Shown: in pieces, positions 7,350-10,625 of the stretch
Numbering within the stretch: position 1 is the first letter of the stretch
Layout of the letters: every line of letters starts with the position of its first letter
Assembly: GCF_937872355.1 (NCBI RefSeq)
Contig: NZ_CALMSV010000212.1
Span: forward strand, 1 to 35,220
Reading direction: 5' to 3'
DNA length: 35,220 nucleotides
Source of the DNA: an uncultured Sphingorhabdus sp.
GTDB lineage: Bacteria > Pseudomonadota > Alphaproteobacteria > Sphingomonadales > Sphingomonadaceae
Made by a program: the position numbers and the translations under genes
Notes under the pieces: generated by a model
Told to the model about the DNA's origin: nothing
The model's input: the letters and a program-made list of their open reading frames with translations, nothing else
Databases searched by the model: none

Positions 7350-9632
7350 CTAGCCCTCAATCCTGGAGAAATCCGCAACGCGGTGCACCGCATCGCGGAA
7401 CCTTGCCAGCAATCCCAGCCTGAACGCCCGTTTGGCCGGGTCTGGATCATTCACCATCACGCCTTCGAAAAAGGCATCAATCGGCGCGCGGAGCGAGGCA
7501 AGTGCCGCCATGGCGTCTTCGAACTGTTCGGCCTCGATCGCCGCAGCCGCCTTGGGCTCGGCGGCGTCGAGAGCAAGCAACAGCGCTTTTTCCTCCCCAT
7601 CGACTTGCGATGGGGAGGTGGCAGTTGCGCTAGCAACTGACGGAGGGGCCTTCGAGGTTGCAGTCCCCTCCACCACGCCTTCGGCGCGGTCCCCCTCCCC
7701 ATCGCTAGTCGATGGGGAGGGGGATTGAGCCTGCTTCAGGATGTTCGCCGCGCGTTTGTAACCCGCTAGCAGGTTCGCACCCTCATCGGTGCCGACAAAG
7801 CCCTGCAAAGCCTTCACCCGCGCGAGCAGGCGGACGAGATCATCCTCGCCGCCGAGAGCGAATACCGCATCGATCAAGTCATGCCGAACACCAGCCTCGC
7901 GCTGCTGGACTTTGAGGCGGTCAGCGAAGAAAGTAATTAGATCATGTCCCGCCTTTACTGCGGGTGCCACCTGTTCGTCGGGCATATCAAGCAGTCGAGC
8001 ATCTGCGAACGGAATAATTTCTGCCAGTGTGGGAGCGCGCCCCAAAGTTTGCTCTAGGCCATAAAAGACCTCGGCAAACTCTTTACGACGTTCACTTTTA
8101 CGCGCCTGAAGATACCAATGGTAAGTTGCCGTCGCGAGCGCCAATCGAATGGAGACTCGGATTCGGTTATCCAGTATCAATTGGAGAACTCCTAGAGCAG
8201 CCCTCCGCAACGCATATGGATCTTTAGAACCTGTTGGTTTTTCGTCGTTAGCGAAAAAGCAGGCTAGAGTATCCAGCTTATCCGCCAAACTCACGGCCAC
8301 CGTCACCGGAGCCGTCGGCACATCGTCACCCTGACCAACCGGCTTGTAATGGTCGCGCACCGCGTCGGCGACGGCATCCGCCTCGCCCTGCGCGCGGGCG
8401 TAATAGCCGCCCATGACGCCTTGCAGTTCGGGGAACTCACCGACCATGCCGGTGACCAGATCGGCCTTGCACAGGCGGGCTGCGCGTTCGGCGTCGTCAG
8501 CGCTTGCACCCTTGACGATGCCTTCTTCGACCAGCCAGCGGGCAAGCATCGCGACGCGCTCAACCTTGTCGGCAACCGTCCCCAGCTTCTCGTGGAAGGT
8601 AATCTGCGACAGCTTCTTCGCCTGCTCGTCGAGCGGGATTTTAAGGTCCTGCTCCCAGAAGAATTTTGCATCGCTCAATCGCGCCGCGAGCACCTTTTCA
8701 TTGCCCGCCACAATCGCCGCGCCGCCATCATTCGCCACGATATTGGCGGTGCAGACAAAGGCGTTGGCGAGTTTGCCGGCCTTGTCGTGGCAGACGAAAT
8801 ATTTCTGGTTCACCCGCGCGGTGAGCTGGATGACCTCTTCGGGCACCTCAAGAAACGCAGGGTTGAACCGGCCGAGCATCGGCACCGGCCATTCGGTCAG
8901 GCCGCTATTTTCATTGACCAGCCCTTCGTCCGGCACGAGCACCAGCCCCGCATCGGCGGCGGCCTTTTCGGCGCCCGCGCGAATGATATCGCGGCGCTCT
9001 TCCTGGTCGACGATGACATGCGCGGCGCGCAGCTTCATCGCATAGTCGCCCGCATTGCCGATGGTCACCTCACCGCTGTGGTGGAAGCGGTGGCCCTTGG
9101 TCGCCGAACCGCTGACGATGCCGTCAATCTCGCACGGCACCACATCATCACCCAACAGCGCGACAATACCCTGCAACGGGCGCACCCAGCGAAGGCTCTC
9201 GGTCGAGGCTGAAGCCGCGCCCCAACGCTGCGATTTGGGCCATGGGAAGGCGCGGATGATCGCCGGGATCGCCTCGGCCAGCACATCGGCGGTTTTGCGG
9301 CCTGGTTTTTCGACGACCGCAAAATAGACGCCATCGCGTTCGATCAACTGATCCTGCGTCAGGCCGACCTTGCGCAGGAAACCTTCCATCGCCTGCGGCG
9401 GTGCGCCAGCCTTGGGCCCCTTGGTTTCCTCAGACACCGCCTCGGTTTCGAGCGGCAGGCCCTTGGCAATCAACGCCAAACGGCGCGGGGTCGCGAACGT
9501 GATGATTTCGGCAGCCTTGAGGCCAGCCTTGTCGAGTTCGGCGGCAAACAGGCGCGCCAGATCCTCGCGCGCCTTATCCTGCATGCGCGCCGGAATTTCT
9601 TCACTGCGCAGTTCGAGGAGGAAGTCGCTCAT
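7350..9632 (-). CDS. glyS: glycine--tRNA ligase beta subunit, carrying an in-frame repeat insertion
   Basis: GlyS is the beta subunit of the bacterial alpha2beta2 glycyl-tRNA synthetase and holds the tRNA-recognition parts. The start [17 protein letters not shown] is at 9630-9632, where ATGA overlaps the glyQ stop by 4 bp; an upstream ATG at 9668 lies inside glyQ and is not needed. The body is recognisable ([15 protein letters not shown]-type core, [12 protein letters not shown] near the middle, C-terminal [18 protein letters not shown] and RVADFS). The 760 residues exceed the roughly 690 of E. coli GlyS. Part of the excess is residues 637-681, rich in S, P, T, G and E, encoded by a palindromic repeat. 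It sits in a linker between the YKRAANIL helix and the last helices of the anticodon-binding domain. A low-GC stretch is present at about 8041-8280. Confidence 0.97.
7591..7724. repeat. palindromic repeat element inserted in frame within glyS
   Basis: The 134-bp unit consists of two strong hairpins at its ends and weaker ones between. The left hairpin has an 11-bp perfect stem CCTCCCCATCG (7592-7602) and CGATGGGGAGG (7608-7618) with loop ACTTG. The right one has a 15-bp perfect stem (7690-7704 with 7710-7724) with loop CTAGT. Between them are AGTTGC/GCAACT (7623-7628, 7633-7638) and GGAGGGG/CCCCTCC (7642-7648, 7665-7671). In the glyS direction two of the three frames are open, and the frame used encodes two similar peptides, [10 protein letters not shown] and SPSQVDGEE, from the two hairpins. 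The left end matches 16 of 17 bases of the sequence just after clpA. Confidence 0.85.
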
Positions 9633-10501
9633 TCCGCCCATCCGTTCTTGTGCATCCATGCCTCGCATGAACCCTTCGCCAGATCGCGCACGCGGCCGAT
9701 ATAGCTGGCGCGTTCCTGCACGCTGATCACGCCGCGCGCCTGCAACAGGTTGAACAGATGGCTTGCCTCAATCGCCTGATCATAGGCCGCGAGTGGCACG
9801 CCGGCTTCGATGCAGCGCTTGCACTCCGCCTCGGCATGCTGGAAGCCTTTGAAGAGCTGTTCGGTGTCCGCAACTTCGAAATTATATTTCGAATGTTCGC
9901 GTTCATTCTCAAGGAAGACATCGCCATAGGTGACGCCTGCCGAGTTGAATTTCAGATCATATACGCGGTCGACGCCCTGGATGTACATGGCAAGGCGCTC
10001 GAGCCCGTAGGTCAGCTCGCCTGCCACCGGCTTGCAGTCAAAACCGCCGACCTGCTGGAAATAAGTGAACTGCGTCACTTCCATCCCGTCGCCCCAGACT
10101 TCCCAGCCAAGGCCCCATGCGCCGAGGGTGGGCGATTCCCAGTCATCCTCGACAAAGCGGATATCATGTTTCAACGGATCGATGCCGATTGCATCCAACG
10201 ACCCCAGATACAGCTCCTGCAAATTCGCCGGGCTCGGCTTCATGATCACCTGATATTGGTAATAATGCTGCAACCGGTTCGGGTTTTCGCCATAGCGGCC
10301 GTCGGTCGGGCGGCGGCTGGGCTGCACATAAGCGGCATTCCACGGATTGGGGCCAAGCGCGCGCAGCGTGGTCGCCGGGTGGAAGGTGCCCGCGCCCATG
10401 CGCATGTCATAAGGTTGCAGGATGACGCAGCCCTGTTTGCCCCAATAATCATGGAGCGTCAGGATAAGGTCCTGGAAGGTAAGGGGTCCGGATTCAGACA
10501 T
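9629..10501 (-). CDS. glyQ: glycine--tRNA ligase alpha subunit
   Basis: GlyQ is the catalytic subunit of the bacterial heterotetrameric glycyl-tRNA synthetase, activating glycine with ATP and charging tRNA-Gly. The 290-residue protein begins [20 protein letters not shown] and contains the family signatures [36 protein letters not shown] and [15 protein letters not shown]. An ATG 39 bp upstream is possible, but the chosen start matches family length and has AAGGGCG upstream. The stop overlaps the glyS start by 4 bp, which couples synthesis of the two subunits. It is the first gene of the minus-strand run and probably starts the glyQ-glyS-orf-ppdK operon from the 190-bp divergent gap shared with the XRE gene. 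Confidence 0.97.
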
Positions 10502-10625
10502 GGTTCGCCCTTGGCGGATGGACGCCCCTAAATCAAGCATCTGTGCCGCAGCGCAGCAAATGGGCTGCGCAAAGCCCCAGAATTCCTGTCGTTGTCAGGT
10601 GTTGATGGCAATATGTAAGGGGTTG

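Follow-up and report, generated by a model that had tools for sequence, protein, structure and literature searches.

A palindromic element read in frame in glyS of an uncultured Sphingorhabdus and its association with DUF559 genes flanked by inverted repeats

Short palindromic repeats are known from several described systems, which differ in their tags and in the genes that accompany them. In REPIN/RAYT systems, GTAG-tagged REP pairs occur together with a Y1 tyrosine transposase, the RAYT, which is thought to move the REPINs; the proposal made below for DUF559 is modelled on that relationship. What moves palindromic repeats without a transposase is an open question, and one class of them is tied here to a small gene for a predicted nuclease. 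Rickettsia palindromic elements (RPE) are units of about 150 bp that lie in frame in unrelated genes, as the accessible part of PMC10969869 describes them. CGTC-tagged REPs of alphaproteobacteria likewise occur in frame, among other places in the tRNA synthetases of S. alaskensis and E. litoralis, according to the portion of PMC3733652 available. In-frame palindromic repeats outside Rickettsia are already known.

The locus considered here lies in a stretch of 35,220 nucleotides, called the window, from an uncultured Sphingorhabdus sp. whose genome is a 3.41-Mb draft of 284 contigs with 98% completeness. This genome is labelled G000, and labels of the type G001-G044 denote the other members of a set of 45 genomes of the genus. 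A sequence-only reading of the window had suggested that a process like that of the RPE may operate outside Rickettsia. The part of this suggestion that stands is the dispersed palindromic repeat read in frame; the process as such is not new and is in print, as far as the accessible text of PMC3733652 goes.

The palindromic element and its host gene

The element lies in the open reading frame of GlyS, which is identified by PF02092 (E 2e-187) and TIGR00211 (720 bits vs a cut-off of 300). Translation starts at ATG 9668 or at the in-frame ATG 9632 (MSDFLLE), the latter being closer to relatives, and the alpha-subunit gene at 9629-10540 adjoins glyS. The features are as follows.

7350..9668, minus strand: glyS, glycyl-tRNA synthetase beta subunit, host gene (PF02092, TIGR00211)
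7591..7721, minus strand: short palindromic element, conserved core, made of A half, spacer and B half (aligned copies)
7690..7724, minus strand: A-half terminal palindrome, 15-bp stem in the window copy; family core 7694-7720 (sequence)
7672..7690, minus strand: A-half inner hairpin, stem 7672-7679 / 7683-7690 (sequence, aligned copies)
7622..7639, minus strand: B-half inner hairpin, stem 7622-7628 / 7633-7639 (sequence, aligned copies)
7592..7618, minus strand: B-half terminal palindrome, 11-bp stem; encodes SPSQVDGEE (sequence, frame)
7590..7653, minus strand: 64 bases equal to the right half of the DUF559 long form on contig C56 of the same genome (sequence identity)

The initial description of a 134-bp unit with two perfect stems inside glyS is exact. 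The terminal hairpins have stems of 11 bp (7592-7602/7608-7618) and 15 bp (7690-7704/7710-7724), the reading frame runs through 7591-7724 without a stop, and the peptides attributed to both hairpins, SPSQVDGEE included, are present in GlyS. Among copies, the conserved core ends at 7721, and the bases up to 7724 extend the stem of the window copy. This core encodes residues 650-693 counted from ATG 9668, or 638-681 from the MSDFLLE start, and the latter start at ATG 9632 explains the residue numbers 637-681 given originally. The folding energy of 7585-7730, read on the gene-sense strand, is -99 kcal/mol vs a mean of -55.8 (sd 4.1) in 200 dinucleotide shuffles (z -10.6).

The unit pairs two mutually inverted halves, A and B, each composed of a terminal palindrome, an inner hairpin and AGGGG; the spacer that follows ranges from 0 to about 40 bases. 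All 15 short-form places in which both halves match the pattern pair A with B (15/15). The ends are TCCTCCCC..GGGGAGGA in the majority of the 21 copies aligned, and a GTAG tag is absent from these hairpin ends. On the gene-sense strand, the inner hairpin of the B half is preceded by CGTC, the last base of which lies within the stem, and followed by CCA, while the outer ends of the unit carry no tag; the stem of the A-half inner hairpin contains one G-U pair on the same strand. No known RNA family was matched at the element, the Rfam gathering scan of the window having returned only a tRNA at 2917-2990.

The inner hairpins of both the A half and the B half differ in sequence among copies while their pairing is mostly retained, and the hairpins therefore seem to be kept as structure. 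Over 21 copies and 11 pairs of the inner stems, 94.1% of cells are paired vs 72.8% after shuffling, both sides are changed in 50 cells vs 15.8 after shuffling, and covariation scores 0.562 vs 0.205 shuffled and at most 0.184 slid; these scores are inflated by kinship, the copies being related and gathered by similarity to the window copy. According to RNAalifold, the 7 two-sided pairs all lie within inner stems. The number of pairs with two-sided change (7 vs 6.5 shuffled) and of further pair types (14 vs 16.0) shows no excess over shuffles.

Tolerance of translation had been ascribed to the open frames of the family, and this points in the right direction: three of the six frames of the window copy are open, and 25 full-length entries, some of them near-palindromic copies entered in both orientations, have on average 3.6 of six frames open vs 2.06 in mononucleotide shuffles. 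Within the draft genome, the window ORF is the sole GlyS match. No second glyS turned up, so the enzyme should function with the 44 extra residues, unless these are removed after transcription. The placement of the unit in a linker of the anticodon-binding region agrees with the short linkers of relatives, with a solved GlyS that has 26 residues between the aligned parts vs 54 in the window GlyS, and with a structure model of the C-terminal part (mean pLDDT of the whole model 70.5), in which the insert is a low-confidence coil between two confident helices. In another part of the protein, the region of residues ~510-575 varies from about 14 to 95 residues across 41 GlyS of the genus, as excised, and is not repeat-like; such length variation is unusual for a synthetase.

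Dispersed copies and DUF559 long forms

Searches of the genome and the genus at the nucleotide level uphold the earlier view of the unit as a dispersed repeat. The window genome holds seven full-length copies, that of the window included, and two half copies, beside which stands a third, more diverged half copy; the remaining match rows of the genome search repeat these places on the opposite strand. Full-length copies elsewhere in the genome have 77-89% identity and one half copy 100%; on the window contig itself, no second copy appeared in the genome search or among the repeats listed (20 of 27 direct families). Across the genus, matches to the unit at E <= 1e-5 come from 24 of the 45 genomes. 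Three of 21 aligned full-length copies lie in the reading frame of a tRNA synthetase gene (GlyS of G000 and G017, ValS of G040). For the other 18, no spanning gene was recognised in loci that carry partial annotation, and short copies appear to land mostly between genes.

The two half copies of the window genome lie on contig C56, where they are inverted relative to each other and surround an ORF whose product carries the DUF559 domain (PF04480, E 5e-22), the only DUF559 hit in this genome. A 169-aa open frame runs across both halves. The right half shares 64 identical bases with window positions 7590-7653, and the best of ten other compared copies shares 49.

This arrangement recurs widely. 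DUF559 is present in 29 of the 45 genus genomes, and 65 domain hits in the fetched loci were reduced to 58 by leaving out three duplicates and four near a contig end; among the 58, one broken gene counts twice, as two pieces, and some loci are orthologous. The left and right flanks are mutually inverted in 50 of these 58 and not in the other 8, inversion being called when the score lies beyond the best of 200 shuffles that preserve base composition only. In control comparisons, inversion was found in 0 of 57 pairs of windows placed 400 bp further out and in 4 of 70 pairs of glyS flanks (80 loci). The 50 units have a median inverted repeat of 53 bp, situated 36 and 25 bp from the domain, and a median span of 462 bp (5-95% range 427-594). 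Beyond the genus, inverted flanks were seen in 22 of 29 loci from other genera of the class, one locus each (control 2/28), and were lacking in 7. A second draw gave 7 of 14 in the same class (control 1/14; 7 without) and 7 of 12 in other classes, covering ten genera (control 0/12; 5 without).

DUF559 similarity tracks the similarity of the inverted repeats (Mantel r 0.515, p 0.0005; 50 loci and 1186 pairs, with pairs of protein similarity >= 0.75 left out), a result that related copies inflate. The tie spans many repeat families and more than one class of the phylum, so that the question of the mover becomes testable with one protein and one DNA. By frequency, DUF559 was matched in 43 of 115 genomes of a class draw and in 68 of 200 of a phylum draw, some of these by weak partial matches in long proteins. 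PF04480 also matches weakly and partially in frames of ~1000-2200 aa that are apparently unrelated to the small element-borne genes.

The DUF559 product is predicted to be a small PD-(D/E)XK-type nuclease with a fold like that of a homing-endonuclease catalytic domain. A structure model built from 25 aligned domains (pLDDT 86) matches 3hrl, an endonuclease-like protein of Neisseria (E 7e-6), 3r3p, the catalytic domain of the homing endonuclease I-Bth0305I (E 1.7e-4), and Vsr (1vsr, E 0.03); the sequence profile likewise matches 3hrl (E 4e-32) and 3r3p (E 2e-4). Eight residues are invariant in the 25 sequences (E13, W17, D41, E52, G55, H58, D67 and R70), among which D41, E52, H58 and D67 are presumably the conserved acidic residues and histidine of the EDxHD/Vsr-type active-site region. 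PADLOC gives a weak match to DpdF (E 2e-5 over 58 residues). I-Bth0305I represents the EDxHD homing family, according to the accessible part of PMC3943268. In Caulobacter, the DUF559 protein VsrA is required for the DNA-damage response in cells without cytosine methyltransferase and is described as a likely mismatch-repair endonuclease, in the portion of PMC12907096 available. A RAYT is not supported as mover in the window genome, as PF01797 gave no match in this one draft genome of 98% completeness (0/1), the controls being positive in 5 of 14.

Long forms of the window type occur in G000, G023 and G014 at what looks like one shared place; that of G021 is decayed and that of G034 diverged. 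At the shared place (G000, G014, G023) the gene lies between two B halves. In G034 (L222) the gene is flanked by one B half and one A half, which corresponds to the short form with a gene at its centre. An origin of the short form by plain deletion of the long form of its own genome is not supported, since the halves are A and B in the former vs B and B in the latter. G039 and G040 yield 21 and 23 match rows for the window unit (both strands) and have no window-type DUF559. The flanks of one DUF559 gene of G040 are partly similar to the window type, and in G010 (L241), G023 (L219) and G044 (L217) a DUF559 element of another family (PPRNGEGD..PLPASGED or PLPAGGED) lies directly upstream of glyS.

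No clean empty site corresponds to the C56 element, as the sister genome G007 has other repeats in both gaps, and no target duplication or clean junction was seen at C56 vs G007 or in the GlyS of G000 and G017. In the C56 locus (L258, 500-760 and 2080-2800) compared with that of G007 (L300), the same intergenic gaps hold different palindromic repeats, as the GlyS and ValS loops do.

Recurrent inserts in GlyS and ValS linkers

GlyS was read from 41 of the 45 genus genomes, four of them partial. An insert of the window family is present in two (G000 and G017) and absent from the other 39; with the same DNA repeated elsewhere, the alignment of relatives identifies residues 638-681 as a dispersed repeat and not an ordinary linker, as the sequence-only reading had proposed. 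G017 carries the family at the same linker, which is short in its kin G010, G014, G015 and G024. Both inserts share the loop variant CTAGC, found in few copies, and at both junctions linker bases of the relatives are missing, not just split. They may derive from two events or from one event and a transfer.

Long inserts occur, depending on the genome, in four linkers of GlyS, near residues 200, 294, 385 and 650-690. Dispersed repeats match 32 of 40 long linkers and 0 of 117 short ones when compared with the remainder of the window and 156 loci lacking glyS (~0.5 Mb in all), a set partly selected by the window repeat and DUF559, so that it favours those families. Linker by linker, in the order given, the long ones match in 3/3, 3/3, 8/14 and 18/20 and the short ones in 0/36, 0/35, 0/25 and 0/21, one of the 36 near residue 200 being a misaligned partial row. 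The 385 linker accounts for six of the eight long non-matches. At the window's own linker (650-690), inserts from at least four different repeat families are found across genomes. These varied inserts, the low-confidence coil in the model and the shorter linker in the solved GlyS indicate that the loop is tolerant and is used by different repeats. Two further observations concern these linkers: VQHDG in the GlyS of G003 is apparently the decayed remnant of an insert in the window's linker, and near 385 the GlyS of G027 (L164) has tandem repeat-like peptides in one linker, PAQAGAQ..LDPGLRRG and then VTPAKAG..MDSRLRGND.

ValS is matched in 41 of the 45 genomes, and from 30 fetched loci 29 linkers were read. 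Four contain inserts matching DUF559-flank families, one of which is the window family (G040); 24 are short and one is longer without a repeat match. The ValS of G025, which is not among the 29, also matches over the whole query. At the loop of the G040 insert, L311 (G027), L313 (G006) and L337 (G031) show at least two further DUF559-linked families, and the inserts of G006 and G031 look to be of a single kind, which may be inverted in one of the two. The GlyS and ValS loops are natural replicates of a repeat becoming protein, in which the same loops of different species hold different repeats. This sharing of loops by several families, like the tie to DUF559, was missed by the sequence-only reading.

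Judged by sequence match, the inserts fall into two classes, and the window element belongs to the class that matches DUF559 flanks. Compared with 59 DUF559 loci carrying 62 domain hits, 14 of the 40 long inserts in GlyS find matches in the directly adjoining flanks of 5-28 loci, with 0-2 matches in control windows; the other 26 have no DUF559 link. Insert types HPELVSG..VQHDG, PAQAGA..LRWSD or LRRG, and AEPVEA..LRQAQGER gave no match to the near flanks of the 59 loci, and HPELVSG (7 loci) and PAQAGAH (1 locus) types do occur in control windows 600 bp further out. In appearance, these three types (HPELVSG, PAQAGA, AEPVEA) resemble the alphaproteobacterial REPs with a CGTC tag.

Explanations and comparison with known systems

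The unit in glyS is probably a nuclease-free short form of a REPIN- or MITE-like mobile element partnered with DUF559; the association of such repeats with the gene and the family specificity of that association are observed, and mobilisation by the gene product is what we infer. The short form, of about 130 bp, would be a REPIN-like pair of two inverted halves, each with terminal palindrome and inner hairpin, and the long form, of about 460 bp, would have a single DUF559 gene enclosed by such halves, which serve as terminal inverted repeats. The predicted nuclease may recognise and cut the hairpins at the element ends, or cruciforms. Repair with copying of a break at the element or at the target could then place long and short forms in new positions, with the gene-free short forms using the nuclease in trans. 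Selection would purge most coding insertions and keep in-frame ones that lie in loops. A few such copies may persist in loops of essential proteins, presumably with no function there, the unit being GC-rich and poor in stops and the loop able to tolerate a disordered stretch. Against DUF559 as the mover, it must be noted that no clean empty site or target duplication was seen at C56 or in GlyS, that the nuclease link of the window family comes from few events and that copy number does not follow the presence of the cognate nuclease.

A broader proposition is offered tentatively, at somewhat less than even odds: DUF559 genes across Pseudomonadota could mostly be the nuclease genes of an unnamed class of mobile elements, namely palindromic inverted-repeat transposons with a homing-type PD-(D/E)XK nuclease and no transposase. 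The short forms of such elements would make up much of the palindromic repeat load and would keep writing translated segments into essential proteins at tolerant loops.

The nearest rival to the mobile element partnered with DUF559 holds that DUF559 is a homing-type parasite invading the centre of existing palindromes that spread by other means, so that the long form is the invaded and the short form the empty target. The best solved match after 3hrl is indeed the catalytic domain of a homing endonuclease, the gene sits in the middle of a palindrome pair, and the A-B long form of G034 (L222) fits such an invasion. It is nevertheless an unlikely account: long forms with two B halves (G000, G014, G023) have no counterpart among the 15 short-form places with both halves matched, the parallel between nuclease and repeat similarity (Mantel r 0.515) would need co-evolution of a late invader, and the spread of the short forms is left unexplained, with no PF01797 in the window genome. 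Still less probable is that no dedicated mover exists, the repeats spreading by replication errors, template switching or gene conversion at hairpins and DUF559 being a host repair or defence nuclease that settled beside them by chance. From chance settling, neither the narrow unit size nor the flank enrichment nor the family specificity is expected. Consistent with it are the failure to see a target duplication or clean junction, the mixed half types that suggest exchange between copies, the weak PADLOC match to DpdF and the likely mismatch-repair role of the Caulobacter DUF559 protein (accessible part of PMC12907096).

There is hardly any probability left for the GlyS stretch being an ordinary, fast-changing, low-complexity linker with chance palindromes. 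The linker that holds it is indeed variable, and S, P, T, G and E abound in the stretch, but full-length copies elsewhere in the genome are 77-89% identical and one half copy 100%, long and short linkers contrast in their matches (32/40 vs 0/117), and the fold lies at z -10.6; the dispersed copies and the linker contrast refute this explanation.

A partnership between DUF559 and palindromic repeats was not found in the literature searched, which mostly excluded subscription journals, so that an earlier description is possible. With the RPE, the window family shares its in-frame position, in GlyS (G000, G017) and in ValS (G040). The likeness is one of description, and the genus is different; moreover, the window element has long forms with a nuclease gene, whereas the accessible part of PMC10969869 mentions none for RPE. 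With the CGTC-tagged REPs, the unit shares the in-frame occurrence of alphaproteobacterial hairpins; its B-half inner hairpin has CGTC before it, with a one-base overlap of the stem, and CCA after it, and the outer ends of the unit are without a tag. MITEs resemble the element in having inverted ends and a gene-free short form beside a gene-bearing long form (G000:C56); unlike them, the window element has halves that end in palindromes, and no transposase was seen. A target duplication was not seen either, at C56 or in GlyS, where no clean empty site was found. The predicted fold of DUF559 is that of the EDxHD (I-Bth0305I) and Vsr nucleases, from which it differs as a small single-domain protein, a predicted nuclease, encoded between palindromic inverted repeats and not in an intron. 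In comparison with REPIN/RAYT, the window genome has no PF01797, the GTAG tag is lacking and the partner is a predicted PD-(D/E)XK-type nuclease, whereas both systems have a dispersed pair of inverted hairpin halves and a partner gene flanked by halves of the same kind.
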